Below, piece by piece: positions 1,865-51,635 of a stretch of 56,884 nucleotides of DNA (positions within the stretch are counted from its first letter, which is position 1; the number at the start of each line of letters is the position of its first letter). Location: positions 1 to 56,884 of the forward strand of contig JAIORV010000023.1 in assembly GCA_021107945.1 (NCBI GenBank), written 5' to 3'. A program made the translations under genes and the position numbers. The notes beneath the pieces are model-generated. The model searched no databases. It saw only the letters and a list, made by a program, of their open reading frames with translations, and was not told where the DNA came from. The DNA is from Vulcanimicrobiota bacterium. Lineage in GTDB: Bacteria > Vulcanimicrobiota > JAJTBE01.

Positions 1865-2236
1865 TTATGTCATATTCCTCTTTTTTGATTCTCCAGATAT
1901 TCGCACAGTATTCTCGGTAACAACGACGAATTTATTTACTATATAAGAAGAATATTTATTGAGTAATTCATTAATCATTTTGATTTTATTTGAGGAACGT
2001 TCGTCCTCCAATCTTAAAAGAATAATACCCTTATGGGCGATCTTTCTTCGAAATACCATTTCGCCAAAGTCTTTATCATTAGTTATAATTATTCTACTTT
2101 CATCATATGCTTTCTGTAGAATTGTTCTATCATCCAATCCTCTTGCTTTATCAAACACAGAAAAAACATCGTAATTCATTGACTCAAGCCACTTCGCTAC
2201 CTTGGGACCTGTACATTCATCAACAAGAAATTTCAT
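1865..2236 (-). CDS. DUF5615 PIN-like toxin component
   Basis: A 123-aa protein of the DUF5615 (Mut7-C-like PIN) family. The hallmark start MKFLVDEC gives the first acidic pair (D6, E7), and the ITNDKDF segment (D54, D56) supplies the second acidic cluster, as expected for a PIN-type metal-dependent RNase. Its ATG follows the stop codon of the DUF433 gene with no spacer (stop at 2237-2239, start at 2234-2236), which is the standard arrangement of this toxin-antitoxin pair. Family members are thought to be RNase toxins; the actual RNA target is unknown. The C-terminal tail after residue 110 is short and basic. Confidence 0.85.
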   Translation of the reverse strand: MKFLVDECTGPKVAKWLESMNYDVFSVFDKARGLDDRTILQKAYDESRIIITNDKDFGEMVFRRKIAHKGIILLRLEDERSSNKIKMINELLNKYSSYIVNKFVVVTENTVRISGESKKRNMT

Positions 2237-2485
2237 TTAAAGAGCCTTTCTATATATGGGCAAGTATGTGAAGCTATCCAGGGCTTCCGTGGCAAAAAGA
2301 AGGCATGCCATTATATCCTCACGAGATAAACCCTTGTATTCCTGAAGTATTTCTTCAACAGTTGCCCCTCTGCCCAAAATGCCCAGGATATATTGTACGG
2401 TCAGACGAGTACCCCGGATTATCGGTTTACCAACCATAATTCCCGGATCTACTTCTATTCTATTCAATAATTCATTCTTTTCCAT
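2237..2485 (-). CDS. DUF433 antitoxin
   Basis: An 82-aa DUF433 protein. The family pattern is clear: RIEVDPGIMVGKPIIRGTR at residues 10-28, then a winged-helix region with VEEILQEYKGLSREDI. DUF433 proteins are DNA-binding antitoxins that neutralise the adjacent DUF5615 nuclease and probably repress their own operon. The start is supported by an AGGAG about 7 bases upstream of the ATG. It is translationally coupled to the toxin gene, whose ATG abuts this stop codon. Confidence 0.87.
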   Translation of the reverse strand: MEKNELLNRIEVDPGIMVGKPIIRGTRLTVQYILGILGRGATVEEILQEYKGLSREDIMACLLFATEALDSFTYLPIYRKAL

Positions 2486-2591
2486 TTTTAGACTCCTATT
2501 CTGTTATATTGCAGGCTGATCGGGAGACCAGCCGCTACTTAAATTGAAACCAGTCCCCACCCGGATCGGAAAATAGGGCGATGTTCCCGGT

Positions 2592-3656: not shown

Positions 3657-3740
3657 TCCATTTTTCACCTCGTTTATCCGACAGTGATTTTTTAACGCAG
3701 AGATCGCAGAGGATTATGGGTCGCGAATTTCAGTCTCATT

Positions 3741-3767
3741 ATCGGGACGGGGACGTCCCTCCTACAG
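3741..3767. repeat. dispersed palindromic repeat B (GGGACGTCCC family)
   Basis: A 26-27 bp element containing the perfect palindrome GGGACGTCCC flanked by ATCGGGACG on one side and TCCTACAG on the other. Copies in this window are at 3741-3767, 22755-22780, 25194-25219, 49483-49509 (one base different) and 55601-55627, in both orientations. Diverged relatives with a different hairpin core but the same CTCCTACAG or TTGTAGGAG end lie at 40857-40885 and 40979-41006. All are in gaps between genes. This looks like a REP-type element; the mobilising enzyme is not in the window. Confidence 0.85.
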
Positions 3768-3910
3768 ACGACCTCCGACTTCTGGCATCCGTAATCTATT
3801 ATCTGCTGTCCATTCTCCACCATCCGTAATCCGACATCCGGCCTCTGTAATTCTTTGCGTCCTTTGTGGTCTTTGCGGTAAAAAAACACATCTGACCTCC
3901 GATATCCATG

Positions 3911-4621
3911 CTATGTGATGGTAGTTTCCCTCTCCCATTCCTTTCCGTTAAACAATTCGTGTAAAAACACGTTTACATGTCCCCATCCCACTGGAAATGA
4001 CTCGGCCTTGCTCTCTCCGCCGATGCGGTTTCCTTCAATTGTGGGTATTTCGCCGATATTTAATTTAAGCTTCATCGCCCTTATGCTCATCTGATACTCG
4101 ATGGGGAATTTCTGTTCGTCGGTGTTGAGTCTTTTGAAGACGTCTCTTCTCACCGCCCTGTAGCCGTTTATCGTATCATGAACGTAATCTTTCGTATTCC
4201 ACAGCAGGTTTGCGGTGTATGTAAAAGATTGATTCACCCACGCCCTCCACCTGAAGAAATGATCGTCCTCCTCATTCCGGGATCCCCTCATAAACCTCGA
4301 AGCAATGGCTATGTCGCATCCGTCCTCGATTTTGGCAAAAAGAAGGGGAATGTCCTCAGGATCCTCATTCCCATCGGGGCTGAAATAAAGCAGCACATCT
4401 CCCTTTGTCTTCCTGAGTGCGACGCGAAAAGCTTCTCCCCGGCCTTTTATTTCCTGTTCCAGGACTCTCAAGCCTTTTTCGTCGAGGAACTCCCTTGTGC
4501 CGTCTGTGGATCCGCCATCTACTGCGACAACTTCATCGGCGGCCTCAAAGGGAATTTTGTCATAAAGCTCCTTTATACCGTCGATTTCATTGAGGGTTAG
4601 AACAATAAGTGTTTTTTTCAT
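3911..4621 (-). CDS. GT2-family glycosyltransferase (DPM1/dolichyl-phosphate sugar transferase-like)
   Basis: A 236-aa GT-A fold glycosyltransferase. The first strand and nucleotide-binding VVAVDGGSTDGT are at residues 31-42, and the metal-binding acidic motif (PDGNEDP, about 82-88) takes the place of the usual DxD. Similarity of layout is to polyprenyl-phosphate sugar synthases that move a sugar from a nucleotide donor to a lipid carrier; there is no C-terminal membrane segment, so the enzyme would be peripheral. The open frame runs 35 codons further upstream to 4726, but the ATG at 4619-4621 is preceded by AAGGAC at a good distance and begins with the family-typical MKKTLIVLTLNE, so the shorter form is preferred. 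The substrate cannot be told. Confidence 0.85.
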   Translation of the reverse strand: MKKTLIVLTLNEIDGIKELYDKIPFEAADEVVAVDGGSTDGTREFLDEKGLRVLEQEIKGRGEAFRVALRKTKGDVLLYFSPDGNEDPEDIPLLFAKIEDGCDIAIASRFMRGSRNEEDDHFFRWRAWVNQSFTYTANLLWNTKDYVHDTINGYRAVRRDVFKRLNTDEQKFPIEYQMSIRAMKLKLNIGEIPTIEGNRIGGESKAESFPVGWGHVNVFLHELFNGKEWERETTIT

Positions 4622-4785
4622 GTCATAAGTCCTTTTTTTTATTGCATAAGCCACAATGTCCGTAAAGAAAGTTGATGTGGTCTGAATAATTCCTACTAAC
4701 ATTATGTAAGACATTCTATGAATCAAATATTTGCAGACTGACTGGATATTATTGATGTATTGATAACGAATGCAAATATCAATGT

Positions 4786-5835
4786 CTATTTTAAGACTAA
4801 TTCGAATTTATTTTCTGAAGCTTCGTTTCTCAGCTTCTCTATGCTTTTCTTTTGTCTTTTTGACAGCTTGGTTTCGTCGAAGCCTTCTTTTGAGGTAAGT
4901 TTTAATCGTGGAATGGGTTTGAATTGTTTATCATTTATTTCCACATTCTCTAAATTCGTGAATATCACCATTCTCAATAACCCATCTTTTATATCTGACA
5001 TAGAAGGCAAATTACCTCTTTTTGTATGTTTTGCTTCTGTGATTAATATGTTATCATCAATTATTTCAACTTCATCAGGTACGAAATAATAAATTCCTCC
5101 AAGAAAATTATTAATTAAGATTTCCCCTTTTTCTCCCTCTAAATTTTCAGATGCCTGTAATGAAAGGCTTTCTCTTTTCTGTGCCTTTTCAGCCAAGTTT
5201 CTTGATAGGTTGATAAAACTTTCTCTTCCCTGTTTCAGTTTATTAATCCTTTGTTGAGCTTTTTCAATTGAGTGCATTTGAACTTCAAGTTTTTTTGAGA
5301 TATTAACGTATGAATTTATTGCCATATCTCCAATCATGCCAACTTCATCAGTTTGTTTCAAATTCCAGTGCAAAGCATCGGATTGATAAGATATCAGATT
5401 GGTTATTTTATCTTTTATATATTTTAAGTCAAATCTTTGTCTTGTTATCTTGTTAGCATATTTTTTCATACTTTTTTTTGCATCAGTATAATAGGCAATG
5501 ATAACATAGACCCCCAATAGGCTCATCAATGAAATAGTATCCCATTGCAAAAAGTCTCTATCACCATCTTTTCCCTCATCTTTAATTATAGGTATAATTG
5601 TGACTTTCTTGATTCCGAGACCCAATGTATTATATACCCTCTCATAAGGATAGGATCTTGTCCTTTTTGGAGAAACCCATCGACTCATACCCAATTCCAT
5701 TTTATCATCAACTTTAAGAATAAAAGAAGATTCTTTTTCTAACGCGGTTTTTAAATCTGATAATTTATATTCCCTTAGTTCTTTACAGAGCAAACATCTA
5801 TATTGTATCCCCTTTATTTTAGCAGAAATATTCAT
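4786..5835 (-). CDS. probable type II restriction endonuclease, PD-(D/E)xK type
   Basis: A 349-aa protein starting 2 bases after the stop of the methyltransferase upstream, which by itself argues for a restriction partner. It has a lone CxxC near the N-terminus (CLLC, residues 14-17), a hydrophobic segment around 104-116 (MSLLGVYVIIAYYT region), a coiled-coil stretch at roughly 180-235 rich in Lys, Glu and Gln, and a C-terminal nuclease-like site: PD at 253-254 and EAK at 267-269, separated by 12 residues with hydrophobic strands, a canonical PD-(D/E)xK spacing. The family is not one I recognise by name. The functional call rests on gene order and on this motif. The coiled coil before the nuclease core is unusual for an orthodox type II enzyme and suggests a dimer or an effector-like domain order. 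Confidence 0.7.
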   Translation of the reverse strand: MNISAKIKGIQYRCLLCKELREYKLSDLKTALEKESSFILKVDDKMELGMSRWVSPKRTRSYPYERVYNTLGLGIKKVTIIPIIKDEGKDGDRDFLQWDTISLMSLLGVYVIIAYYTDAKKSMKKYANKITRQRFDLKYIKDKITNLISYQSDALHWNLKQTDEVGMIGDMAINSYVNISKKLEVQMHSIEKAQQRINKLKQGRESFINLSRNLAEKAQKRESLSLQASENLEGEKGEILINNFLGGIYYFVPDEVEIIDDNILITEAKHTKRGNLPSMSDIKDGLLRMVIFTNLENVEINDKQFKPIPRLKLTSKEGFDETKLSKRQKKSIEKLRNEASENKFELVLK

Positions 5836-5837
5836 TC

Positions 5838-6680
5838 TTAAGTTATTTCTCCATTTCTATAAATTGCCTCGAATATATCATTATTATCATCAAGAAAACT
5901 CTGATCTGTTCCAAATCCTATTTTTTCACGAATAATTTCCTCCAACTCTCCCTTTATTTCAATGCCGATGCTATTTCTTCCAAGGTCCCTGGCAATCTTC
6001 AATGTTGTTCCGCTTCCCGCAAAAGGATCCAGCACTGTTTCACCTTTATATGAAAATAAGGTGATAATTCGATATGGCAGTTCTTTGGGGAAGGCCGCAA
6101 TATCCTTCTCAAGTCTTGAACCGGGAAGTACATTCGTCATATTCCAAAGGGTCATGTACCACCGGTTATCCTGGAATTCTTTTATATTAACTTTTGAAGA
6201 CTCCCTGACCTCCTGTGGTATTGATTTATATACAAACTTTCCTTTCTGGAAAATGATTATGCTTTCAAGCAAGTTGTCCGGATAATAATACATGGGAAAC
6301 GGATGCTGAAGCATAACCCCGCTTCTTCTGCTTATTCTCAGGTAACCGTCAGGCTTTTTCCAAATTATTCTATCCCTGTACCTGAATCCCGCATTTTGAA
6401 ATATTTTTGTTGCATCGGCAACAATGGGAAATTTTTCTCCTTTAACAAGCATATCATCAATATTAAGAACTGCGATCCTGCCTTTTTGCAATGTCCTGTA
6501 TGTCTCTTTTGCCATTTTTTCAAGAATAGCGAGATATTGCTCATAGTCATCATATAATTCCTTATAGTCAAACGGGGCGTTGAAATAAGGGGGTGATGTA
6601 ACCATGAGGTGGACACTTTCATCTTCGATTTCTTTCATACTTTCCGAGTTACCTATAATCAATTTGTGATGGGTGGGCAT
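5838..6680 (-). CDS. beta-class DNA methyltransferase (restriction-modification)
   Basis: A compact 280-aa DNA amino-methyltransferase. Motif IV is TSPPYFNA at residues 28-35 and motif I is DPFAGSGTT at 218-226, the beta order typical of N4-cytosine/N6-adenine modification enzymes of type II systems. A strong GGAGG-type ribosome site sits 9-10 bases before the ATG. The 3' neighbour 2 bases downstream is the putative nuclease at 4786-5835, so the two probably form one restriction-modification operon with the methyltransferase translated first. Sequence specificity cannot be predicted. It is a paralogue of the methyltransferase at 2592-3656 but lacks the HTH. Confidence 0.92.
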   Translation of the reverse strand: MPTHHKLIIGNSESMKEIEDESVHLMVTSPPYFNAPFDYKELYDDYEQYLAILEKMAKETYRTLQKGRIAVLNIDDMLVKGEKFPIVADATKIFQNAGFRYRDRIIWKKPDGYLRISRRSGVMLQHPFPMYYYPDNLLESIIIFQKGKFVYKSIPQEVRESSKVNIKEFQDNRWYMTLWNMTNVLPGSRLEKDIAAFPKELPYRIITLFSYKGETVLDPFAGSGTTLKIARDLGRNSIGIEIKGELEEIIREKIGFGTDQSFLDDNNDIFEAIYRNGEIT

Positions 6681-6888
6681 GGTTGTTACCCTCCTCCGGG
6701 TTTTGTATTCTATACTTTCGCAATTGTAATTCTGAGTATGTTAACATTTCCCTTCAAAATCATCAATTTTCAGGAGCATTGGGAGTGACATTTTGCACAG
6801 AAATTATTTTGACCCGTATTGGTCACCATGTTATAATTACAGGAGATGAGGGTATTGATTCTGTCAAATTCCCAGGAGGTAAATTACA

Positions 6889-7155
6889 ATGTTTGACATG
6901 TCCCGAAGAATGAATTTAATAAATCTTATAAAAATTCTACCTGAAAAACAGATTGAAATGGCGGAAATTTATATCAAATCCATTATTTCCCAACTTAATG
7001 ACCCTGTTTTGGTAAAATTACTGACAGCGGATAACGATGATGAACCACTGACGGCAGAGGAAATAGCAGAAGGTGAAGCTAATTGGCAAGCTTATCTTCG
7101 GGGTGAAGCTATAGACTTTGATAATTTCGCAAAGGAACTTTCCGATGGTGAATGA
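6889..7155 (+). CDS. RelB/ParD-like antitoxin of a RelE-type pair
   Basis: An 88-aa acidic protein. The first 50 residues are helical (LINLIKILPEKQIEMAEIYI) and the rest is the acidic, disordered neutralising tail common to antitoxins (DEPLTAEEIAEGEANW). The start is fixed by a strong GGAGGT 9 bases upstream. The reading frame overlaps the toxin start by 11 bases, which implies translational coupling. I cannot assign a Pfam antitoxin class with certainty; the call depends on the neighbouring RelE-type toxin. Confidence 0.75.
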   Translation: MFDMSRRMNLINLIKILPEKQIEMAEIYIKSIISQLNDPVLVKLLTADNDDEPLTAEEIAEGEANWQAYLRGEAIDFDNFAKELSDGE

Positions 7156-28336: not shown

Positions 28337-29311
28337 ATGTTAAGAAAATCTTTTGTCATTTTAATTATGCTCGTTGTGTTTATGGCTTCTTGCAGCAGGA
28401 AGCCTGATGAACAACCTCAACCCAAATTAACCCCGGTTGAGACGGCAACAACTGTTTCGAAGACAAAAACTGTTCCAAAGGCAAAGCCGAGCTTCATAAA
28501 AAAACCCAAACAAAAATTTGCTACAGAAAATAAGATGAAGGGTCTAATAAAGGCGATTAGCGAGGGTGATAAAAAAGCTGTGGAAAAAATTCTGAACAAG
28601 AAGCCCGAGTTGGTGAACAAGAGTTATGGAAAGGGAGTTCAGGCGCTTCATACCGCTATTTCGGAAGGCAATAAAGACATTGTAAATCTTCTGATCAAAA
28701 AGGGCGCTGATGTTGATATTATAAGCATCGACGACGGCTCAGCTCCGCTTCATATTGCTGCAGTTTCCGGTTATACGGATATCATCAAGATATTATTATC
28801 CAATGGAGCAAAGATTAATATAAAAGATAAGGTAGGCAACACCCCCCTTCATTGGGCTATGCTTGATAAAAAGTTAGAAGCTTCAAAATTGCTGGTAAAA
28901 AAAGGGGCGGATGTAAATGCGAAAAACAACGAGGGAATTACCCCGATAATAACTGCGATTGAACTCAGAGCAAATGATATGACAAAATTACTTCTTGATA
29001 ATAATGCCAAGATTAATATAAAAGATATGGATGGCGATACACCTCTTCACATGGCGTCAGAAACAGAACAAAAAGAAATTGTAAAAATGTTGCTTGACAA
29101 GGGTTCCAAAGTAGATGCCAAGGATGTTTTTTCGCAAACACCACTTTACTGGGCGGTCATAAAAGGAAATGCCGACATTGTTAAAATGCTTATTGAAAAA
29201 GGCGCTGATGTAAATGCAAAAACGAAAAACGGCAAAACAGTACTTCAATGGGCAAATAAAAAGGGATACACCGAGATTGCAAAAATCCTGAAAAAGCATG
29301 GTGCGAAGTAA
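28337..29311 (+). CDS. ankyrin-repeat lipoprotein 1
   Basis: A 324-aa lipoprotein: signal peptide ending in FMASC (lipidated C19), a Pro/Lys/Thr-rich linker (about 24-65) and seven ankyrin repeats (about residues 70-320), with repeats such as GNTPLHWAMLDKKLEA and GDTPLHMASETEQKEI. Ankyrin repeats bind other proteins, so this would be a surface-facing or periplasmic scaffold. A good AAAGGTGA ribosome site precedes the ATG. It is the first of three tandem paralogues on the same strand; spacing to the next gene is 20 bp. No enzymatic domain is present. Confidence 0.9.
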   Translation: MLRKSFVILIMLVVFMASCSRKPDEQPQPKLTPVETATTVSKTKTVPKAKPSFIKKPKQKFATENKMKGLIKAISEGDKKAVEKILNKKPELVNKSYGKGVQALHTAISEGNKDIVNLLIKKGADVDIISIDDGSAPLHIAAVSGYTDIIKILLSNGAKINIKDKVGNTPLHWAMLDKKLEASKLLVKKGADVNAKNNEGITPIITAIELRANDMTKLLLDNNAKINIKDMDGDTPLHMASETEQKEIVKMLLDKGSKVDAKDVFSQTPLYWAVIKGNADIVKMLIEKGADVNAKTKNGKTVLQWANKKGYTEIAKILKKHGAK

Positions 29312-29331
29312 TTTCTTCTGAGGTTTGAGAA

Positions 29332-30195
29332 GTGAAACAATTAATTGCAATTATTATTCTTTTTTTGATAGTTTTTTGTTCATGCTCGAAAAACGACAAC
29401 TCGAAAATAAAATTGGTTAAAAGTGAAACTCCGATATTACAGAAAACCATGGAACAATCTTTGAAAATAACTTCTGAAAGTACAAGTATTTCAGGTAACA
29501 AAAAAACCGATCAAGATTCTCCCCTTCATGTGTCAGCTTCCGCCAACGATTTTGAAAAGGTAAAGGAACTTATCGCCAATGGTGCTGATGTTAATATCAA
29601 GGATGAAGAGGAAGGTGCAACGCCTCTTCATTCTGCATCGAGCGCAGGACATTCAGAAGTTGCCAAAATCCTCATTCAAAACGGCGCGGACATGAATTCC
29701 AGGGATTTCCAGGGTTCTACTCCCCTGCATTGGGCTATCAGAGAAAACAGGGAAGATATTATTAAATTGCTTGTCCTCAAAGGAGCCGATATAAATGCAA
29801 GGGATGCCGAGATCTTGACTCCTCTTCATTCCGCCGCTGAAAAATGCTCTATTAAGCTGGTAAGATTTCTTATATCTCATAACGCCGATGTAAATTCGAG
29901 GGAAGAGATGGGAGAAAATCCTCTACATTTTGCCATTGACGAGAAAAGATATGATATAGTGGAACTGCTCATCGAAAAAGGCTCGGACCTGAAGATGAGA
30001 GATACAAAGTACGGGCGCACTTCACTTTACTGGGCGGTTAATAAAGGTGACGAGAAAATGGTGAAATTACTTTTATCAAAGGGAGCAAATCCCAATTCCA
30101 GGTCTTATGACGGCAAATCAATGATTCAATGGGCAAAACAAAAAGGATATGACAGGATTGTGAAAATACTGGAGAAAAACGGGGGAAAAGAGTAG
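29332..30195 (+). CDS. ankyrin-repeat lipoprotein 2
   Basis: A 287-aa lipoprotein starting from GTG, with a short hydrophobic signal and lipobox VFCSC (C18). About seven ankyrin repeats fill residues 55-285 (for example GSTPLHWAIRENREDI). Its last repeat, ending in IQWAKQKGYDRIVKIL, is close in sequence to the corresponding end of paralogue 1, so recent duplication is likely. The stop codon TAG overlaps the GTG start of the third gene (TAGTG), implying coupled translation. Confidence 0.88.
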   Translation: MKQLIAIIILFLIVFCSCSKNDNSKIKLVKSETPILQKTMEQSLKITSESTSISGNKKTDQDSPLHVSASANDFEKVKELIANGADVNIKDEEEGATPLHSASSAGHSEVAKILIQNGADMNSRDFQGSTPLHWAIRENREDIIKLLVLKGADINARDAEILTPLHSAAEKCSIKLVRFLISHNADVNSREEMGENPLHFAIDEKRYDIVELLIEKGSDLKMRDTKYGRTSLYWAVNKGDEKMVKLLLSKGANPNSRSYDGKSMIQWAKQKGYDRIVKILEKNGGKE

Positions 30196-31271
30196 TGGGA
30201 TTTAAGAACAAATGCCTCCCTATATTTTGCATAATAATTATTTCGATTTTATTCTTTTCATGCTCGGGAGTAAAGCAAGAGCAGAGTCGTCAACGTATGT
30301 ATGACAGAATGTTCTCAGATGCTATAAATGCCAATGATGTTAAATCGGCAAGAAAGATTCTGGAAAAAAGCCCTGATCTTATCAAGAGGAATCATCCGCA
30401 AAGAGGTACTTTCCTGCACAAAGCTTGCTCTACAGGAAATAAAGAAATTGTAATTTTCCTTATAGAAAAAGGAGCGGATGTCAATTCAAAGACGATAGAT
30501 GAGGGAGTTGTGCCGCTTCATACCGCCACGGGTAAGGGATATACGGGTGTGATAAAAATTCTTATTGAAAAGGGGGCGGATATTGATGCAAAAGACAAGA
30601 GTGAGGCGACTCCACTTCATTGGGCGGTAAGAGAGAGGCAAAGCCCGACTGCGATATTACTTATAGAAAAAGGTGCGAATGTAAACGCAAAAGACAATAT
30701 AAATATGACCCCGCTTCATTCCGCCGCCGAGAATGGACTGAGGAAAGTTGTAAAGCTGCTCATAGAAAAAGGCGCGGAAATTGACGCATTTGAAGACAAC
30801 CACGAATCTCCCCTCCTGGAAGCTTCCAAATTTGGCGACAGGGAAATCGGTAGTATGCTTATATCAAAAGGCGCTGATGTTGATGCAATGGATTTGGACG
30901 GCGACACTCCCCTTTACCAGGCGGCAAGGGAGGGACACCTTGAGATGGTTGATCTTCTGTTGAAGCATGGGGCGAAAGTCAATACGATAGATGAAAACAA
31001 GTTAACTCCTCTTCATGGAGCAGCAAAAGGAGGATATCTGGAAGTTGCCATCTCCCTGACAGATAAAGGCGCGGATGTTAATATGAAAGATAATAAGGGA
31101 CAAACCGCTTTACACAAGGCTGTGATGAAAGGTGACGAAAAAATCACCAGGCTTCTGATAGAACACGGAGCAAAAGTAAAAGTAAAAGATAAAATGGGAC
31201 AGACTCCCCTGGATATCGCAAGAAAAAGAGGGGATAAAGAATTAGTTAAATTGCTTGAGGATAATAAGTAG
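30195..31271 (+). CDS. ankyrin-repeat lipoprotein 3
   Basis: A 358-aa lipoprotein, the longest of the three, with signal ending FFSC (C23) and about nine ankyrin repeats (about residues 60-355), e.g. EATPLHWAVRERQSPT and GDTPLYQAAREGHLEM. It starts from a GTG that overlaps the previous stop by one base. The end of the repeat domain, GQTPLDIARKRGDKEL, closes the solenoid. All three paralogues share the two-residue patterns TPLHxA and KGADVNAKD, so they came from internal duplication. The partner proteins are unknown. Confidence 0.88.
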   Translation: MGFKNKCLPIFCIIIISILFFSCSGVKQEQSRQRMYDRMFSDAINANDVKSARKILEKSPDLIKRNHPQRGTFLHKACSTGNKEIVIFLIEKGADVNSKTIDEGVVPLHTATGKGYTGVIKILIEKGADIDAKDKSEATPLHWAVRERQSPTAILLIEKGANVNAKDNINMTPLHSAAENGLRKVVKLLIEKGAEIDAFEDNHESPLLEASKFGDREIGSMLISKGADVDAMDLDGDTPLYQAAREGHLEMVDLLLKHGAKVNTIDENKLTPLHGAAKGGYLEVAISLTDKGADVNMKDNKGQTALHKAVMKGDEKITRLLIEHGAKVKVKDKMGQTPLDIARKRGDKELVKLLEDNK

Positions 31272-31752: not shown

Positions 31753-33921
31753 TTACATTCTGGAAAATGATTTAAAATAGGAATCGCCAGGATATTTCTT
31801 TCCCCCGATAACCGCCCCTTCTATATGTTTCCTCACTTTATCTGAGCTTATGAATTCACCGTTTTCTTTATATGTTATCCATTCTCCGTCTGAAAAACCC
31901 CTCATGGTTCTGAACGGCTTGCCTCCTGATTTTACCTGCCATATTTTTATTGTGCCGTCCTTGCCACCTGAAGCGAATATCTTTTTACCGGGGGCGAATG
32001 ATAGGGACTCAACATCATCCGTATGCCCATAATAGCTCCTGATATTCTTCCCTGATGATGTGTCCCATAACCTGATCATCCTGCTGAACCCACCCGACAC
32101 GAGGTGCTTTCCATCTTCTGACAGAGCGATCGTCCATATAGGAGCTTTGCTTCCTTCTAAAGTTTTCACCTGGTTTTCACTTTCTATCTCCCAGAATCTG
32201 ATTATTCTTCCACCGGCGGATGCGAAATACTTTCCTTCAGGAAAGAATACAATTGACCATACAGGTGAGACAGGATTCGAAAAAAGCTTTATCTCTTCCC
32301 TTGTTTGAATATCAATATACCTCATCGTGTTTTCCGAATCTTCATCCTGACTGCCTGTCATAAAATGATTTCCGTCGGGAGAGAATTTTATTGAAGTGAT
32401 AGGTTCACGATGCAATTTTTCAAAATATATGTTTTTCCCTGTCTTGAAATCCCATAAACCCGCAACGCCTTCGACATCGCCGGAAACGATATATTTGCCG
32501 TCGGGAGATACATCCACGCATAACACGGGAGACAGGTGTCCCTTGAGATTGCTTACCACCTGCCCATCAGGTATGTCCCATATTGTTATCATCATATCCA
32601 GGCCGGCAGAGACAATTTGTTCGTTGTCAGGTGTGATGACCACACATTGGATAGGTTTTGTATGCCCCACAAACTGCCTGATCATTTTCCCCGTTTTGGG
32701 ATCCCAGAGCTTTACTGTGGTATCTTCACCACCCGACGCAAGCATTTTGCCGTCCGGAGAGAATGCAACGGATTGGACCTTTCCATCTGTTTTTTCAAAC
32801 TTGTCCATTACTTTTCCACTTGCCATATCAATTTTGTTTATAACACCGTTTCCACCGGCCGATACGATATATTTGCCATCGGGTGAAAAAGCAATTGCAT
32901 TAATAAAGAGAGATTCGCGCAGATATATATTTAATATTTCTTTCTTGCCCTGAATAGTCCATACTCTGATATGATTGTCCAGTCCGGCAGATGCCACCAC
33001 CCCGCCGTCGGGAGAAAATGCCACGGAGAGAACCCCTCCCGGATGTGATATTTTTTCTATAACTTTACCTGAAGATACATCCCATATAATCACTGTATCA
33101 TCCTTCGACCATTCATTTTCTTTATAGTCGTCTTCAGTGATTTCTCTCTTGCTTGCATCCATTTCCCTGACAGTTTCCCATTTAACGGAGCTTTTCATTG
33201 TAAAACTACCGGAAATAAGTCGCTTGCCGTCAGGAGAAAATGCTACAGAATGAACCCAATACTTATGTCCCTTGAACTTTCTCAACAATTCACCCGTATT
33301 TGCATCCCATAATCTAACAGCTCCGCTCCCGTCTCCAGTGGCAATATATTTGCCGTCCGGTGAGAAAACGAGGGAGGAGTAAAATGCCCTGCTGTCCCTG
33401 AATGTCTTGAGTAATTTTTCATCCGATACACGAAATAGCTTTATCGGCCCGTTGAATCCTGCGGTAGCAAGGTATTTTCCATCGGGAGAAAATTCGGTCT
33501 CACATCCACCATCCTTTATTCTTTTTAGCAATTTGCCGGATGATACATCCCATAGTAACACGGTATTATCGTAATTTCCCGCAGAGACAATTCTGCCGTC
33601 AGGCGATATGGCAACAGAGGAAATAATGCCGTTATTCCCCCTGAATTGCCTTAAAAGCTCACCGGTCTTGAAATTCCATAGTCTCGGCGATTTATCCACT
33701 CCCCCGGACAACAAGAGAGAGCCTTCTTTTGAAAATGCGAGGGAAGTTATCTTTTCACGGTGTCCTGTTTTTAATATCAGTTTGAAATTATTTTCTTTTT
33801 CTATTATTTCGGGAACGGAAGAAATATCTGCCTTCCCGTTTCTTGATCTATGAAGATTGCAGACGGCGGTTAGCAATAGGATAGATGATATTAAAATTAT
33901 CAGGTAATACTTACTTTTCAT
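31753..33921 (-). CDS. 14-bladed WD40 protein, membrane or lipid anchored
   Basis: A 722-aa protein with a single N-terminal hydrophobic segment (YLIILISSILLLTAVC, to C21, a poor lipobox because of Val at -1) and then 14 WD40 blades, recognisable by FSPDGKY-type repeats spaced about 40-50 residues from residue 60 to 690. Fourteen blades suggest two seven-bladed propellers in series. WD40 surfaces bind proteins; no kinase or protease domain is attached. It is the last gene of the minus-strand cluster with the TPR protein and the membrane-fused spermidine-synthase-like enzyme. Confidence 0.9.
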   Translation of the reverse strand: MKSKYYLIILISSILLLTAVCNLHRSRNGKADISSVPEIIEKENNFKLILKTGHREKITSLAFSKEGSLLLSGGVDKSPRLWNFKTGELLRQFRGNNGIISSVAISPDGRIVSAGNYDNTVLLWDVSSGKLLKRIKDGGCETEFSPDGKYLATAGFNGPIKLFRVSDEKLLKTFRDSRAFYSSLVFSPDGKYIATGDGSGAVRLWDANTGELLRKFKGHKYWVHSVAFSPDGKRLISGSFTMKSSVKWETVREMDASKREITEDDYKENEWSKDDTVIIWDVSSGKVIEKISHPGGVLSVAFSPDGGVVASAGLDNHIRVWTIQGKKEILNIYLRESLFINAIAFSPDGKYIVSAGGNGVINKIDMASGKVMDKFEKTDGKVQSVAFSPDGKMLASGGEDTTVKLWDPKTGKMIRQFVGHTKPIQCVVITPDNEQIVSAGLDMMITIWDIPDGQVVSNLKGHLSPVLCVDVSPDGKYIVSGDVEGVAGLWDFKTGKNIYFEKLHREPITSIKFSPDGNHFMTGSQDEDSENTMRYIDIQTREEIKLFSNPVSPVWSIVFFPEGKYFASAGGRIIRFWEIESENQVKTLEGSKAPIWTIALSEDGKHLVSGGFSRMIRLWDTSSGKNIRSYYGHTDDVESLSFAPGKKIFASGGKDGTIKIWQVKSGGKPFRTMRGFSDGEWITYKENGEFISSDKVRKHIEGAVIGGKKYPGDSYFKSFSRM

Positions 33922-33959
33922 ATTATAATCTGCGTCCTCTGCGGTGAATACTTACCAAA

Positions 33960-35270
33960 TCATGGGCTTACAAATCGAAGCCGCCTGTTGAGGTTATATT
34001 CAGGCAAACCAGACGTAATCTTTTCCTCCTGGCGGGCTTTTTTAATATTACCCAGCTTTAACAAGACAACGGACAGATCTGTATGAAGATCCTTTCTTGA
34101 AGGATTCAACTTTATCGCTTTTTCAAGAGAGTTTCTTGCCTTCAGATAATATACTTTTTTGGGGTAAATTTTACCAGACATCGGTGAACCTTCAAATTGA
34201 AACAGGAACCATATTAAGAATGTAAAAAGCAGGAATAGAGCAATTAAGATTAGATGACCTCCGCTATGGGAAGGCAATAGTTTATCGCCATATATTTTTT
34301 TAAAGCACTTTTTTAATATGGTAAATAAAGCAATAAAAGCTAGTGTCAAAATTATCATTATGACAGCTATAACCAGATTCGATTTTAATCGGGATTCCTT
34401 TGCAGGCTTTTCTGCCATTTTCATATATGTCTTTCCCAGTCCGGCATATGCTTCTCCGGCAAGACGACTACTGTCCATTTTTAAAGCTTTATCGTAATGC
34501 TCAATTGCATTTGAGTAATTTCCTCTTTTTCTCTCCATTTCTCCCATATAGATGTAGGCTCTTGCATATTCGGGATTCTTTTTCAATACCTCATTGAAAA
34601 TTCTCTCTGCTTTTTCGTAATCGCCCTGATCTACAAGCATATTCGCCAGGCTACACCTTGTGGCAGGTCCCTCGGGGTCAAAAACGGTTCCCGCCCGGTA
34701 AGTTGTATGAGCTTTCTCGTTTTTTCCTGTAACCCGATAGATATTTCCCAGTCCCACAAAGCTGTCGGTGCATGTAGCGTTGACAAATTCTCCCATAAAA
34801 TAACGCTCTGCATCATCGTAACGACCTAAAATGTAGTACAACTGACCGTTTAACTCCCACCTGCCTTCAAAATCAGGATATGTCCTTTCAATGATTTTCG
34901 ATTCCTCAATAGCATTGTCAATTTTTCCGGTTTTTAAAAATAGATGGCCAAGTCTGCGATGCGCGCCATAAAAGAGGAAATCTTTCCTGGGACTCTTTTT
35001 TATTACACAGTCAAAATGCTTTTTTGCTTCATCATATTTTTCAAGCACCATGCACATTTCGCCGAGGTCCAGGTAAAGCTCAAGGTTATCGGGATGTTGT
35101 TTGATTCTTTCTTTCAGGTATTTATAATTTTCCAGATCATTTGTATAACAATTTTCTTTATTATCCCCAAATATAGAACCCGAAGGAATTAACATAAAAA
35201 AGGAAATTAGAATAAGTAAGAATAGGAACCGGGGTGTTTTCTGAAAGAGATATTTCCAAGATTTGCTCAT
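33960..35270 (-). CDS. membrane-spanning TPR protein
   Basis: A 436-aa protein with an N-terminal hydrophobic segment (FLFLLILISFFMLIP), a block of about six TPR repeats (about residues 60-285, e.g. RAYIYMGEMERKRGNYSNAI), two transmembrane segments (about 300-325 and 345-365), and a last TPR-like unit (about 385-425). The topology puts the main TPR block on one side of the membrane and the C-terminal unit on the other or between hairpins. TPRs mediate protein binding. It lies 18 bp from the spermidine-synthase-like gene and 38 bp before the WD40 gene, so it belongs to that operon. Confidence 0.85.
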   Translation of the reverse strand: MSKSWKYLFQKTPRFLFLLILISFFMLIPSGSIFGDNKENCYTNDLENYKYLKERIKQHPDNLELYLDLGEMCMVLEKYDEAKKHFDCVIKKSPRKDFLFYGAHRRLGHLFLKTGKIDNAIEESKIIERTYPDFEGRWELNGQLYYILGRYDDAERYFMGEFVNATCTDSFVGLGNIYRVTGKNEKAHTTYRAGTVFDPEGPATRCSLANMLVDQGDYEKAERIFNEVLKKNPEYARAYIYMGEMERKRGNYSNAIEHYDKALKMDSSRLAGEAYAGLGKTYMKMAEKPAKESRLKSNLVIAVIMIILTLAFIALFTILKKCFKKIYGDKLLPSHSGGHLILIALFLLFTFLIWFLFQFEGSPMSGKIYPKKVYYLKARNSLEKAIKLNPSRKDLHTDLSVVLLKLGNIKKARQEEKITSGLPEYNLNRRLRFVSP

Positions 35271-35288
35271 TTTATTGCTCTTTCATCT

Positions 35289-36863
35289 TTATTCCCATTT
35301 CTTCCATTCTTTCTCGTAATACTTCAGAAGCTTATGGCTATCCAGTGTGTTCACATCGGTTTTTACTTCACTGATATCCTTGCCGAAATAGAACAAGTCA
35401 ACGATTTTCCCGGGCTTTAAATATTTTGTCTGGATATCCGGAATTACAATTTCAGCAGGATTGAAATCATAGTCGGACACAAGTGAAAATCCCCAGTCCC
35501 CCATTGAGGGAATGAAAGTATGGAATGGGTGATTAATAAGCCCGGCCTTTTCCATTGTATGCACGATGCACCAAAAAGTCTCCGTTGCAAAATATGGGGA
35601 TGTTGACTGTATGCAGGCGACTCCCCCCCTGGCGAGATGATGTTTTATCATCTTATAAAAATTGACGGTGTAAAGTTTTGACAGACTTTCGTTGTTGGGA
35701 TCCGGCAGATCCACAACTATCACGCCGTACCTGTCTTTTGAATTCTCGAGGAATTTATAAGCATCCTCTATCACAATATTCATCCTGGGGTCGCTCAATG
35801 AATTCTTGTTAAGCCTGCTTATAAGGAAATCGGTTTTACTAAGTTCAACGATGTCCTTATCAATATCCACAAGTGTAACTTTTTTTACATCCGGATATTT
35901 TAAGATCTCCCTTGCCGCCAGTCCGTCGCCGCCTCCGAGTATGAGTACCTGCTGCCTGTTCGATGTCAATGCCATTGCCGGATGCACAAGGCACTCGTGA
36001 TACCTGTATTCGTCCCAGGATGAGAACTGCAGGTTTCCGTCGAGGTACATTCTCATATCGTCTGCGTAGCGTGTTACAACGATTTTCTGGTATTTCGTCT
36101 GTTTGGAAATAATTATCTCATCATCATAAAGCTTGCTTTCAAAAAATGAAACTAATTGTGTGGAAAAGATCAACCCTCCGATAAGAATCAAGCTAACAAT
36201 AACGGCCGATGTAATAAACATTTTTCTTTGCTTTATTGTATCGGAAAAAATTGTGATATTAAAAAAAACGACTACCATATTTAAAAGTGCATAGAAGAAT
36301 GAAGCATGCATCACACCCATATAAGGTAAAATAAACAGAGGGAATAGGATTGAGGCGAGGAGCCCTCCGGTATAATCAAACGCCAATATGTCCGATATTG
36401 AAAATTTAAGTGCCTCGTAGTCCTTGAGAATTCTTATAAGGATTGGTATTTCAATCCCGAGAAGAGCTCCCAGGAGAAGCAGAAATGCATAAAAAAGGAT
36501 TGAAAAAACAGGTGTATATTGATATGCGGCAAAAAGAAAAAGTGTGGAAAAACCGCCTATAAGCCCCACTACTATTTGAAGCAGAATGAAGCTCTCTACG
36601 AGATTCTTCTCAAATTTCCTTGAGATGTATGATCCCACGCCCATGGCAAAGAGATATATGCCGATTGTGAGGGAATATTGCAGGATAGCGTTTCCAAGGA
36701 AATAGGAAGAAACAGTCGCCACGAGCAATTCATACGAAATACCGCATATTGACATTGCAAAGGCGGTTGTAATCAGGGCAAACTGTGCCCTCTTTGCACC
36801 GGAGAGATTTCCTTTTATTTCATTGGCACCGTCTGATTCTTTTACTATTTTGTTATTACTCAT
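35289..36863 (-). CDS. membrane-fused spermidine synthase-like protein
   Basis: A 524-aa protein: about seven transmembrane segments (residues 29-240) fused to a class I methyltransferase-fold aminopropyltransferase domain (about 255-510). The nucleotide-binding GGGDG is at 310-314 (LILGGGDGLAAREIL), followed by VDIDKDIVELSK and a DLPDPNNE segment where spermidine synthases have DSSDP. The S/T-to-L/P change in that segment means that substrate preference is open. The membrane part resembles MFS-like modules seen in SpeE fusions. It is the central gene of a cluster with a DUF4178 protein and a 63-aa membrane protein, a combination I associate with polyamine- or lipid-related membrane systems. 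Confidence 0.88.
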   Translation of the reverse strand: MSNNKIVKESDGANEIKGNLSGAKRAQFALITTAFAMSICGISYELLVATVSSYFLGNAILQYSLTIGIYLFAMGVGSYISRKFEKNLVESFILLQIVVGLIGGFSTLFLFAAYQYTPVFSILFYAFLLLLGALLGIEIPILIRILKDYEALKFSISDILAFDYTGGLLASILFPLFILPYMGVMHASFFYALLNMVVVFFNITIFSDTIKQRKMFITSAVIVSLILIGGLIFSTQLVSFFESKLYDDEIIISKQTKYQKIVVTRYADDMRMYLDGNLQFSSWDEYRYHECLVHPAMALTSNRQQVLILGGGDGLAAREILKYPDVKKVTLVDIDKDIVELSKTDFLISRLNKNSLSDPRMNIVIEDAYKFLENSKDRYGVIVVDLPDPNNESLSKLYTVNFYKMIKHHLARGGVACIQSTSPYFATETFWCIVHTMEKAGLINHPFHTFIPSMGDWGFSLVSDYDFNPAEIVIPDIQTKYLKPGKIVDLFYFGKDISEVKTDVNTLDSHKLLKYYEKEWKKWE

Positions 36864-44431: not shown

Positions 44432-45697
44432 TCACGATGCCTTTTCTTCCACGTCAGATTCAAATATCAAAGTAGGCCTTTTCTTCTCCGTAATTACCTC
44501 GGCTGTTACTACACATTTCCTGACATTATCCAGAGAAGGAACCTCAAACATTATATCCAGCATCACTTCTTCAATTATACTTCTAAGTGCTCTTGCTCCC
44601 GTTTTTCTTTTGCAGGCTTCCTTTGAAATTGCATCTACAGCTTCCGGAGTTATCAATAACTCGACGCCATCAATCGCCATAATTCGCTGATACTGCTTAA
44701 CCAGGGCGTTCTTAGGCTCGACAAGGATCCTCTTCAGGACTTCTTCGTCAAGCTCATCGAGAGTAACAACGATGGGGACTCTTCCGATGAATTCAGGGAT
44801 CAAACCATATTTCAAAAGGTCCTCCGGCATAATCTGACTAAGAATTTTCCCAACGTTTTCTTTCTTCCTGCTTGAAATATTTGCACGGAAACCCATGGAT
44901 TGATCCTTTACCCGCTGTTCAATTATTTCGTTCAATCCCTCGAAGGCTCCACCGCATATGAAAAGTATATTTGTGGTGTCCAGAGTGATAAAATCCTGGT
45001 GTGGATGTTTTCTTCCACCGGAAGGAGGGACGTTTGCAACGGTTCCCTCAATTATTTTTAAAAGAGCCTGCTGAACTCCCTCGCCTGATACATCCCTTGT
45101 AATTGAGGGATTGTCGGACTTCCTGGCAATCTTATCGATTTCATCAATATAGATTATGCCCTTCTCGGCTCCCTTTAAATCGTAATTGGCGGCCTGGATA
45201 ATTTTTAAGAGAATATTCTCCACATCCTCACCCACATAACCGGCTTCCGTCAGTGCCGTGGCATCCGCCAGAGCGAGAGGTACCTTCAGTATCCTTGCAA
45301 GGGTCTGCGCAAGGTATGTTTTGCCGCAACCCGTGGGTCCTATAAGAAGAATATTACTTTTCATAAGCTCCACATCATCTTCCGTTGCTTTCTTGTCTTG
45401 AGTGGAAATTCTCTTGTAATGATTATAAACTGCAACCGAGAGGGATTTTTTAGCCCTATTCTGACCGATAACATATTGGTCAAGAATTTCATTGATTTCC
45501 TTCGGTTTAAGGAGACTTTTAAGTTTCGCGGGTTCGTCGGTTGTGCGGGAAAGCTCTTCTTCAATTATTTCGTCGCACAACTGAACACATTCATCGCATA
45601 TATAGACCCCGGGACCGGCAATAAGTTTTTTTACCTGCTCCTGGGCTTTTCCACAAAAAGAGCATTTCAAAGCTCTTGTATCACTTATACCAAACAT
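44432..45697 (-). CDS. clpX: ATP-dependent Clp protease ATPase ClpX
   Basis: A 421-aa AAA+ unfoldase of the ClpXP protease. The N-terminal zinc-binding domain has C12, C15, C34 and C37; Walker A is GPTGCGKT (120-127); Walker B is in [10 protein letters not shown] (about 182-191); the sensor and C-terminal lid are normal, ending in an acidic tail. Length and order match ClpX in other bacteria. It lies 91 bp downstream of clpP in the order tig-clpP-clpX, as in many bacteria. Confidence 0.97.
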
Positions 45698-45788
45698 GAC
45701 TACCTCCGAATAACCACCAATTAGCCGGAGACAAAAATTCCTCCGGCTTCAGGCGGAAAATATTAAAAATTAATTCAAAATAACTAAA

Positions 45789-46418
45789 TCATCTCATGTC
45801 TTTAGTTATTATCTTATCAACTAAACCATAATCCCTGGCTTCCTCTGCACTCATATAATAATCGCGGTCAGTATCTCTTTCAACTTTTTCAAGTGGCTGA
45901 CCCGTATGCTTGGAGATTATCTTGTTGAGAACCTTTCTTGTTTTCACTATTTCCTTTGCCTGGATATCAATATCCGTCGCCTGTCCGCCGATTCCCCTGA
46001 TCCACGGCTGATGGATAAGTATGCGGGAATAGGGCAAAGTAAATCTTTTTCCGGCGGCGCCTCCACAAAGAAGAAGAGCGCCTGCGCTGGCGGCTATTCC
46101 CATGCATATAGTGGAAACGTCGGATTTTATCAACTGCATACAGTCATATATTGCCAGGGCGGCCGTTGTGGACCCTCCCGGGCTGTTTATATAGAGATCG
46201 ATGTCCTTATCCGGATCTTCCTGCTCAAGGTATAATAGCTGGGCGATTACCAGGTTCGCAATTGTATCGTCGATGGTGTCACCCAGGAATACTATACGAT
46301 TCTTTAAAAGACGGGAATAAATGTCATAAGCACGTTCACCCCGCGCCGTCGTCTCTACAACCATCGGTACAAGAGCGGCTCTTGTCTCATTTCTCATATG
46401 CTCTAATCCTTTCATCAA
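45789..46418 (-). CDS. clpP: ATP-dependent Clp protease proteolytic subunit ClpP
   Basis: A 209-aa serine protease subunit. The catalytic Ser is S111 in [11 protein letters not shown], His is H136 in LIHQPW and the Asp is in the RDTDRD segment (182-186). LVPMVVE at 16-22 is the processing region. The open frame starts at 46418; the ATG at 46397 (MRNETRA) is also good because AAAGGA precedes it inside the longer form. Length fits ClpP with a short propeptide. Position between tig and clpX supports the call. Confidence 0.97.
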
Positions 46419-46569
46419 ATTCTTGACGGGGACAGTTACATATCATCCCCGTTCAACAATTATAAGTCTGTTTGATAATATATTTTACTTAATACTTATT
46501 CAGATTCGCTTTACTGTCGAGGGATTCAATTCAGCTCCGGGGTTCCTCCTCTTTCTCCCCGGTCACCGG

Positions 46570-47985
46570 TTATTCCGTTTCCGGTTTATCTTCGACAGCC
46601 TTTTCTCCGGTTACTTCCGTTTCACCTGTTTCGATTTCTTTTCCAGGCTCCTCTTCATTTACCAATTCTATGGTTTCTTCTGTTATATTAGCATGTTCAA
46701 GGAGAAAATCATAGACCTTTCTATTTCGAATTGAATATTCAAAACCGCTAATTTGATTTTCTTTTTCCAATGCTTTTCGAATAACCTGGACATCCTGATT
46801 GAGTCTTTTTGCCATCTCTTCGATTTCTTTATCGATTTCCTCATCAGTCGCCTTAATGTCCTCGAGCATTGCCACCTTGTCCAATATAAGTTCAGCTTTT
46901 GCCATTTCTACACCCTTGGGATAGAACTGCCGCTTCACTTCCTTTTCGGTTGTGCCCTGACCTTCGAAGTAATCTTTCAGGTTTGTCTTCATCATTTTTA
47001 AGTTATATTCCAGGTTATTCATGAAAATTTGCAGGTTATGCTCCACAAGTGATGGTGGTACCAGAACCCCTTCCATCTTTTCAATTAGCTTGTTTATAAC
47101 CTGATCCTGTAACTGCTGTTTTTCCTGTTGTTCAATGCCGTCCGCAATGTTTTTTCGCATATCTTCTTTCATTTCGTCAAATGTCTGAAAATCTCCAATT
47201 GATTGGGCGAAATCATCGTTATAATCCGGAAGCTTCTTTTTCATTATATCGTGAAGCTTGAATTTGAAGTGAGTTTCTTTGCCTGCAAGTGCCGGGTTGG
47301 CGTAGTCATCGGGGAAGGTAATGTCAGCTTCCCATTCATCGCCGGGTTTGTGACCGATAAGATGCTCTATAAATCCGGGGATAAAACTATCGTCTGAAAC
47401 TGTCATATAATAATTTTGTGCTCCCCCGTTTTCCACAGGCTCTCCATCCTGGAAGCTTTCAAAATCGACAACTGCCACATCTCCCTTTTTCAGGGGACGA
47501 TCCTCCTCAACCGGAATCATTTCCCCGGCCTGTTGCCTGAGTGCTTCAATTTTTTTATCCACAATCTCTTCTGCATCAACTTTAGAAGGCTTCTTTGTCA
47601 ATTCAAGTCCCTTATAGTCAGTAAGCTCAAATTCAGGCTTTACCTCTACGGTGATTTCAAACTTAATGGGCTCTCCCCTATTAAATTCAATCTCCATATA
47701 GTTAGAAACTGCAGGTACTGCGAGAGGAATGATTTTCTCCATTTCAAGAGCTTCCGAGGCGGCCTTGGGGATTAACTTTTCCAAAAGGTCATTCTTTATT
47801 GTATCTTCCCCAACTTTTCTCAGAACGACTGCGGAAGGGGCTTTACCTCTTCTAAATCCGGGGACCTGGATTTCTCTTGATACATCATTGATGATTTTCT
47901 TTAATATAGGCTCATACTTTGCGGGTTCGACTTCTATCTTGAGAAGTTTCTCGACAGATGACTTCAAACTGGTTTCTACTTTCAT
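46570..47985 (-). CDS. tig: trigger factor
   Basis: A 471-aa ribosome-associated chaperone and peptidyl-prolyl isomerase. The ribosome-binding signature GFRRGKAP is at residues 43-50; an FKBP-like domain follows (about 160-245, with GDVAVVDFESF and FIPGFIEHLIGHKPGDEW); the last 180 residues are the helical arms. The C-terminus carries an acidic Glu/Thr-rich tail longer than usual (VNEEEPGKEIETGETE). The GGAG ribosome site is close to the ATG. It heads the tig-clpP-clpX operon. Confidence 0.96.
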   Translation of the reverse strand: MKVETSLKSSVEKLLKIEVEPAKYEPILKKIINDVSREIQVPGFRRGKAPSAVVLRKVGEDTIKNDLLEKLIPKAASEALEMEKIIPLAVPAVSNYMEIEFNRGEPIKFEITVEVKPEFELTDYKGLELTKKPSKVDAEEIVDKKIEALRQQAGEMIPVEEDRPLKKGDVAVVDFESFQDGEPVENGGAQNYYMTVSDDSFIPGFIEHLIGHKPGDEWEADITFPDDYANPALAGKETHFKFKLHDIMKKKLPDYNDDFAQSIGDFQTFDEMKEDMRKNIADGIEQQEKQQLQDQVINKLIEKMEGVLVPPSLVEHNLQIFMNNLEYNLKMMKTNLKDYFEGQGTTEKEVKRQFYPKGVEMAKAELILDKVAMLEDIKATDEEIDKEIEEMAKRLNQDVQVIRKALEKENQISGFEYSIRNRKVYDFLLEHANITEETIELVNEEEPGKEIETGETEVTGEKAVEDKPETE

Positions 47986-49535: not shown

Positions 49536-51635
49536 TTATTTCTTCTTCCTGCCCGGTACCGTATTACTTTTGGCGTCAAGTTTAGTCAGGTATTCCACAA
49601 CATTGTCATGGCCATTTTCAACAGCCAAATCAAGGGGAGTCTTCCCCAGGTTGTTTTTCGCATTAATATCTGCCCCGGCTTTGACGAGCATTTTAACAAT
49701 CTGCATATGTCCCTGCTCCGCCGCTCCGTGAAGCGGTGTCCAACCGGCTCTCGACTTTGCTTTAATATTCGCACCACGCTTGATAAGTACTTCTGCGGTT
49801 TTCACATATCCCTTTGTGGAAGCCCTCATCAAAGGAGTCCATAATGAGTTGCCTGCAGGCACATCAAGTTTAGCTCCTTTTTGAGCCAACATGTCAACTA
49901 ATTGAGAATACCCTTCTGTAGCGGCGAGATAAGTTGGAGTCATCCCCGTTCTGCTTTCTGCATTTATATCAGCTCCATTTTTAAGAAAAAGTTTCGCCAT
50001 CTCGATATTTCCACTGAAACAAGCAGTATGAAGAGGATTCCATTCACTTTCGTTTCTCTTTTTTACAATATTTGGATTCTTATTCAACAACTTGCCAACC
50101 GCCTTAATATCTCCCTTTTCGACTAATTGAAATATTGGGCCTCCGATACTTGCGTCCTTTGTCAAGTGCACCTTGCCCTTCTTTTCTATATATTCCTCAA
50201 TTGAAGGTGTCTGGAGGAAATCAGAGTATCCAATCGATTCCCGGAATTTTTGCTTTTCTATATAGTATTCATACAAAACATCGAAACCGGACAACTGATT
50301 CTTATATAACTCATCGTACGCATCAATTAATGTTACTACGGAAACCTTGCCCTCCTCATATTTTTTCTTGGATTCTTTAAAATACTCGTATGCCTCTTCA
50401 GCCTGAACAAGCTTGAGGTGTACTTGCTCCATTAACGCAATTTGCTTGAAAAAAAGACCTCTTATACGGGCTTTAAGACGCCTTACAAATATGTCTTTTT
50501 TCAGTTTTTCAATTTCCAACTGCTTCTTTTTGTATGTGATCTCTTTCCAGTTTCCTGTATTAAATACATCGAAGCTTATGGTGATGCCGACCTTAAATTC
50601 TGGAATATCATCTCCATCACAGGAATGAGACGGAGTAAAGTCAATTTTCGGCATGTTGTAAGACATCTCTTTCTTCAGGTCACTTCGGGAGGCTATAATC
50701 TGATAATCATGCATATTTACTTCGGGATTCATTCTCAAGGCATATTTCATAACCATTTTTATAAAGTTGTTAGATGAGTAAATCTTACTATCCCGGAGAT
50801 AGTCCTCATAGTCGGCGTCAAATTCCTCGCTTCCAAACGGAACAATCTCAATCTTTATAGAGGATTCGAGCTGAAGAAGAAGGCTTAATTCCAACTTATT
50901 GTCAACAAGTTCATTTTCATGGGTAACTGCATTCTGTTGATAATTCTTAAGCAGGACTTTCCACCTGTAGTTGGCAGATTTCTTTTTCTTGCCGTCTTCC
51001 ATCTCCGGTCCTAATAAGTCCAACTGTTTATTTACTTCTTTTATAAATTTGTTATCGATTTCCAATTCTCTTTGAACTTTCAGAATATTCATATATGCTG
51101 TTACAACCTGTGTCTCAAGGGACATTGCATTGTCAACAACCTGGAAGATACTTGCCATTTTTCTCGCTTTGTTTGCCCTTAAATTGTGGGATAACTCCCC
51201 AAAATAATAAAGGGGTTGTTTTAAGTTGAATTTATGGGTGTTGTACGCGATAGCTTTTTTGTATGTGTCATTTCTATCGTTTTGAATTGATGTTGATACA
51301 GATATAACAGGATAATATTTCTTCCTTGCTTTTGCAACATTGATTGTTGCAAGGTCTCTCTTTAAGAGGTACATCTTATGCTCAAGGTTGTTCCTCAGTG
51401 CTACTTCAACACTCTTCGACAAACCAATCCTAAGCTTCTTCTTTTTGGAAATATCTTTATTATTCTTTTGTAATTCCAACTCTTTCTTGTTCCATTGCCT
51501 CAGGGGGCTTTTTTCTTTCAACAAAGTATCGGCTTTCTTTACATCCTTTTTATTAGCGATCTCCCCGGCAAATATAGGGATCGAATTGATCAAGAACAAG
51601 AAAACAAACAAAATTAAGTATTTATACTTCATCAA
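49536..51635 (-). CDS. TolC-like outer membrane efflux protein fused to ankyrin repeats
   Basis: A 699-aa protein with a Sec signal (LILFVFLFLINSIPIFAG), a TolC/OEP-type region (about residues 70-475) containing the characteristic helical repeats (SVEVALRNNLEHKMYL, then KKKYEEGKVSVVTLIDAYDEL), and a C-terminal block of five or six ankyrin repeats (about 505-690, such as GWTPLHGAAEQGHMQIVKML). TolC proteins form trimeric barrels that exit through the outer membrane, with helices in the periplasm; the C-terminus of TolC is periplasmic, so the ankyrins would face the periplasm. I know of no standard family with this fusion. No inner membrane pump is adjacent. Start is ATG-ATG at 51635. Confidence 0.85.
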   Translation of the reverse strand: MMKYKYLILFVFLFLINSIPIFAGEIANKKDVKKADTLLKEKSPLRQWNKKELELQKNNKDISKKKKLRIGLSKSVEVALRNNLEHKMYLLKRDLATINVAKARKKYYPVISVSTSIQNDRNDTYKKAIAYNTHKFNLKQPLYYFGELSHNLRANKARKMASIFQVVDNAMSLETQVVTAYMNILKVQRELEIDNKFIKEVNKQLDLLGPEMEDGKKKKSANYRWKVLLKNYQQNAVTHENELVDNKLELSLLLQLESSIKIEIVPFGSEEFDADYEDYLRDSKIYSSNNFIKMVMKYALRMNPEVNMHDYQIIASRSDLKKEMSYNMPKIDFTPSHSCDGDDIPEFKVGITISFDVFNTGNWKEITYKKKQLEIEKLKKDIFVRRLKARIRGLFFKQIALMEQVHLKLVQAEEAYEYFKESKKKYEEGKVSVVTLIDAYDELYKNQLSGFDVLYEYYIEKQKFRESIGYSDFLQTPSIEEYIEKKGKVHLTKDASIGGPIFQLVEKGDIKAVGKLLNKNPNIVKKRNESEWNPLHTACFSGNIEMAKLFLKNGADINAESRTGMTPTYLAATEGYSQLVDMLAQKGAKLDVPAGNSLWTPLMRASTKGYVKTAEVLIKRGANIKAKSRAGWTPLHGAAEQGHMQIVKMLVKAGADINAKNNLGKTPLDLAVENGHDNVVEYLTKLDAKSNTVPGRKKK

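Follow-up and report, generated by a model that had tools for sequence, protein, structure and literature searches.

The gene on the minus strand at positions 49536-51635 of the window (the whole analysed stretch of 56,884 nucleotides, contig JAIORV010000023.1 of a Vulcanimicrobiota bacterium) encodes an outer membrane efflux protein (OEP, TolC type) that is continued by a C-terminal ankyrin domain, and this architecture is found in six genes, the window gene and five homologues, in four distant genomes of one phylum. Because the same fusion is conserved in all four genomes, sequence comparison indicates that OEP-ankyrin proteins make up a true family rather than a chance product. By its sequence and fold the protein is an outer-membrane factor (OMF); its conserved C-terminal domain is without precedent as far as we have searched, and its gene lies unusually far from those of pumps. 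It was originally predicted that no characterised exporter has this design, and none was found in the literature searched; nor is an OEP-ankyrin (TolC-ankyrin) protein described in the databases searched. We regard it as an even call that the protein is a TolC-like duct encoded by an orphan gene, with C-terminal ankyrins that would form a periplasmic collar at the equator of the channel and dock a predicted protein partner.

The open reading frame is uninterrupted, with 698 codons from the ATG at 51632. A TTG codon at 51635 lies directly 5′ of this ATG, and a GGAG is located about 10 nucleotides 5′ of it. The product is ordered as signal peptide, OEP core, linker, six ankyrin units, and a short basic tail (Table 1). 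Its gene is neighboured by a zinc-ribbon protein gene and an alcohol-dehydrogenase-like gene. The ClpX, ClpP, and trigger factor genes are found consecutively nearby (window 44432-47985, minus strand), an arrangement common in bacteria.

Table 1. Features of the OEP-ankyrin gene, with positions in the window
Feature	Residues	Position	Strand	Remark
OEP (TolC-type)-ankyrin fusion, whole gene		49536..51632	-	698 aa, ATG start
Signal peptide, likely cut IFA|GE, without lipobox cysteine	1-22	51567..51632	-	Read by eye
N-terminal extension, variable, lysine-rich	23-68	51429..51566	-	Homologue alignment
OEP repeat 1	~69-270	50823..51428	-	Pfam, model, alignment
OEP repeat 2	~285-476	50205..50780	-	Pfam, models, invariant residues
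Linker between OEP and ankyrins	477-497	50142..50204	-	Least conserved part
Six-unit ankyrin domain	498-690	49563..50141	-	Pfam, unit alignment, model

A complete OEP/TolC monomer with a signal peptide had been predicted, and it is borne out by the presence of both OEP repeats in Pfam (two stretches, 2e-35, 122.7 bits against a gathering cut-off of 22 bits; PF02321 above cut-off at 51012-51416 and 50229-50753) and by an N-terminus, MKYKYLILFVFLFLINSIPIFA|GE, judged by eye from the sequence to be of the Sec signal peptide type. The prediction had assigned the first 475 residues to the OEP; the OEP is present but extends from about residue 69 to 476, with the ankyrins starting at about 498, and the extension that follows the signal peptide is short or missing in most homologues. 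The NCBIfam model TIGR01844 (TolC, type I secretion) has a cut-off of 225 bits and reaches only 84.1 bits, over residues 70-468; the protein is therefore filed in the OEP superfamily and not in the TIGR01844 subfamily. Repeat 1 comprises H2, two predicted strands (109-114 and 133-138), a long H3 (151-206), and H4 (215-252), and carries the conserved motif LxQPLYYFG. Repeat 2 comprises H5/H6, a long H7 (359-426), and H8 (432-466), and closes with the conserved G468-x-S470...P476. A profile built from the six homologous OEP parts matches TolC, SilC, CusC, OprM, and MtrE in the PDB (best E 1.7e-14). Two AlphaFold2 models, each from a three-sequence alignment, have a pLDDT of 58 overall and of about 46 for the OEP alone, which is low confidence. 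Both show the OMF helix order in this low-confidence part, with long H3/H7 and with H2/H4 and H6/H8 paired; the barrel strands of repeat 1 are modelled at the two stretches given above, and those of repeat 2 are not resolved. The best 44 Foldseek matches of the low-confidence OEP model are all OMFs (E 1.7e-6 to 2.5e-3), so that the predicted OEP fold is recovered, at a pLDDT of about 46. The genome is that of a diderm (Omp85 present).

The ankyrin domain is modelled with confidence (pLDDT above 80 for most of its length and in many places above 90). It consists of an N-cap unit, four full repeats, and a C-cap (Pfam Ank_2, 1.2e-40, 138 bits against a cut-off of 27.3; Ank, 5 stretches), in agreement with the five or six C-terminal repeats first proposed. 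The linker measures 21-28 residues in the homologues; counted from the conserved proline to the first ankyrin unit, the distance is 22-29 residues.

The window's genome (G000) contains a paralogue of 648 aa on contig C30, 35% identical in its OEP, and the other members are two in genome G017, one in G007, and one in G020, all of which run into a six-unit ankyrin domain. The five further fusions came from a search of relatives with the OEP part. When 149 genomes of the phylum are scanned with the profile of the family, the six fusions score 564-611 bits and the next OEP 113 bits; the six fusions are themselves in the profile, and only the score gap, not the rank, is informative. A first scan of public contigs (A2) found no fusion. 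A second scan gave two members and no more, namely CASEKF010000054.1 (bin CO.B36.metabat-bins.133 of an uncultured bacterium) and JAKSUM010000192.1 (a MAG from horse faeces); both coincide with fusions already among the searched genomes. A tblastn search of plasmids returned no record covering 80% of the fusion protein, the first of the top two matches being a 252-aa protein without an OEP part and the second a record without annotation. The 698-codon frame is open between OEP and ankyrins, as first proposed, and the same join occurs at five further loci. Six such genes in four genomes rule out that a stop was missed or that the assembly is chimeric. An assembly or sequencing artefact fusing two genes, to which the odd architecture and the modest GC difference between the two parts (0.36 and 0.43) might have pointed, is refuted by homologues whose halves are inherited together, and has next to no probability.

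It is also evident that the two halves share a history. In a tree with 17 canonical OEPs of the phylum, the OEP parts of the six fusions fall into a single clade (100/100). Five of the six ankyrin parts likewise form a clade (98/95) when set against 21 free ankyrin segments, in a tree with row L099 left out. The sixth, from contig C54 of G017, sits on a long branch, and the data do not reject a topology that unites all six (p-AU 0.59). When the three other genomes are searched with the window's ankyrin domain, each has the OEP-fused copy as its top match; even among the 184 ankyrin matches of G017 the fused copy is still best (132.5 vs. 112.8 bits). Across the homologues, 115 of 180 comparisons have the repeat of the same index as best match, where chance would give 30, and position-specific traits are retained, including a tryptophan opening unit 1 and a 34-residue unit 2, each in five of the six. 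Identity across the fusions is on average 34% in the ankyrins, about 25% in the OEP (range 17-35%), and 19% in the linker, the higher ankyrin identity being partly a generic repeat consensus. The OEP clade and the ankyrin clade of five show a single ancient fusion: the two halves were joined once, long ago, and have since been passed on as one gene.

The fusions are set apart from canonical OEPs by their genomic surroundings. We mapped HlyD_D23 adaptors against OEPs in the four fusion-bearing genomes, with a limit of 6 kb. An adaptor is found within this distance for 21 of 24 canonical OEPs (the 24 including three partial pieces) but for none of the six fusions (P = 1.4e-4, Fisher's exact test; P = 4.7e-4 when the fusion on a 3.6-kb contig is omitted). 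Exactly four adaptor matches are present in the window's genome, and each of its four canonical OEPs has one of them next to it, so that none is spare for its two fusions. Adaptor adjacency, the usual sign of a component of tripartite efflux or type I secretion, is thus lacking in the fusions, which lowers the claim that they are such components, although they may have unlinked partners. The fusion loci share no neighbour gene. Of the six, only the G007 fusion (locus L040) has transporter genes in its vicinity: a series on the same strand 5′ of the fusion (1456-7054, plus strand) encodes amidase_2, ABC ATPase, ABC-2 permease, TPR-like, and NIF3 proteins. With no adaptor by any of the six genes and transporters by one, an export role of the fusion is presumptive. 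An RND gene on contig C9 of the window's genome (L132, 5864-10193, minus strand), which has no OEP on its contig, was considered as a client pump and rejected: the gene next to it encodes a GAF-GGDEF protein instead of an adaptor, and the 16 kb covered contain no adaptor. Contig C42 contains an OEP and an adaptor with no pump in the 10.5 kb covered, and the C9 pump may belong with these two.

The C-terminus of an OMF is part of the equatorial domain, which encircles the alpha-barrel at mid-height (PMC8277102). The equatorial region is variable among OMFs, and this has been proposed to mirror partner recognition. In the collar reading, a TolC-family OMF would bear a permanent C-terminal six-unit ankyrin extension, and a TolC-like trimer would carry three covalent ankyrin domains as a collar round the middle of the alpha-barrel, since OMF C-termini end at the equatorial domain; the collar would then dock a periplasmic protein partner. 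Insertion into the outer membrane, trimerisation, and the equatorial position are expected from knowledge of the family, and binding of a protein partner from the usual role of ankyrins; the duct would presumably transport a substrate. The ankyrins had been predicted to face the periplasm, which agrees with the known topology of the OMF family, but to form a belt around the channel base, which has to be moved to mid-barrel (PMC8277102). The geometry of the collar may be loose, because the linker varies in length among the homologues.

These expectations can be compared with known systems. Like the TolC/OEP family (PF02321; TolC, OprM, CusC, SilC), which gives the best profile and fold matches, the fusion has two OEP repeats of predicted helix-strand-helix topology, a signal peptide, and a core of about 410 aa. 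It differs in having a C-terminal ankyrin domain of about 190 residues where TolC has a tail of about 40, and the fusions differ from the family in having no nearby adaptor gene and in forming their own clade apart from the 17 canonical OEPs of the phylum. The E. coli lipoprotein YbjP attaches to the equatorial domain of TolC in a 3:3 ratio (PMC13082787, PMC13095208), and an extra domain, three per trimer, is likewise expected at the equator in the fusion; YbjP, however, is a separate, non-ankyrin protein that is dispensable for laboratory efflux, whereas the domain of the fusion is covalent. The tail of OprM (MexAB/VceAB function) is also an equatorial C-terminal extension of an OMF and affects its working with partner proteins, but it is short, and that of the fusion is a folded repeat domain. 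Bdellovibrio Bd3460 offers exported ankyrin repeats that act in the periplasm by binding protein targets (PMC4686830); it is free and soluble, without a channel fusion, and is likened to the fusion by description, not by sequence.

A wider reading, doubtful in our view, would place the fusions in a separate ancient branch of the TolC superfamily outside the tripartite scheme, a trimeric outer-membrane channel with its own recruitment collar and an ankyrin-docked partner in place of a dedicated adaptor from the same operon, serving either adaptor-independent export or a periplasmic scaffold. The scaffold has also been considered by itself. In this case the OEP part would be inactive in export, an outer-membrane anchor and trimeric frame that shows the ankyrins to the periplasm, e.g., for cell-wall enzymes or lipoproteins. 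Such a role would fit the lack of adaptors near the six genes and the pairing of all four adaptors in the window's genome with canonical OEPs. In the alignment, the first OEP hairpin has a shortened tip in the G007 and G020 members, so that docking of an ordinary adaptor is doubtful there, and with Bd3460 a periplasmic ankyrin protein that binds cell-wall enzymes is already known (PMC4686830). Nevertheless, both OEP repeats and the long H3/H7 helices are retained, as are the OEP motifs (QPLYYFG and, in most members, the G at the tip of the second hairpin). Moreover, tolC of E. coli is likewise an orphan, although several pumps use its product. We consider the scaffold unlikely.

The example of tolC leads to a further alternative, that the fusion is an ordinary shared exit duct used by unlinked adaptors, in which the ankyrins merely stabilise or orient the trimer and have no specific partner. 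The orphan position of the gene is as expected for such a duct, and two adaptors of G017 (on contigs C10 and C49), which have no OEP on the same contig, could use one; YbjP at the TolC equator is dispensable for efflux under standard laboratory conditions (PMC13082787). This alternative sits poorly with the retention of the ankyrins in six of six members, better conserved than an OEP that has diverged to 17-35% identity, and with the lack of a spare adaptor in the window's genome, and we judge it improbable.

TolC-type ducts normally depend on separate proteins, either adaptors that recruit them or lipoproteins that stabilise them. A conserved collar that binds proteins and is part of the same chain, as favoured here, would be a natural recruitment module, and a single soluble ankyrin domain would provide a direct pull-down handle for equatorial-belt partners of an outer-membrane channel. 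An ankyrin-rich lineage may thus use the repeats in its own periplasm, beyond effectors aimed at a host.

It had further been suggested that the fusion might share a partner with the three ankyrin lipoproteins at 28.3-31.3 kb of the window. Their lipoboxes, read by eye, are ASC|S, CSC|S, and FSC|S. The 5.6-Mb genome contains 203 Ank_2 matches, and several of the frames are 700-1100 residues long. Searched with the fusion's ankyrins, it gives the paralogue at 162 bits, and about fourteen other loci outscore the best lipoprotein (106 bits). The suggestion finds no specific support because many other repeats in this ankyrin-rich genome are at least as close as those of the lipoproteins, and a common partner is possible. 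The three ankyrin-repeat genes are consecutive (28337-31271, plus strand) and probably form a tandem operon. Many eukaryote-like repeat proteins are encoded in the window's genome, and at 31753-36863 of the window (minus strand) the genes for a WD40 multi-blade propeller protein (722 aa), a TPR protein, and a spermidine-synthase-domain protein lie in series.
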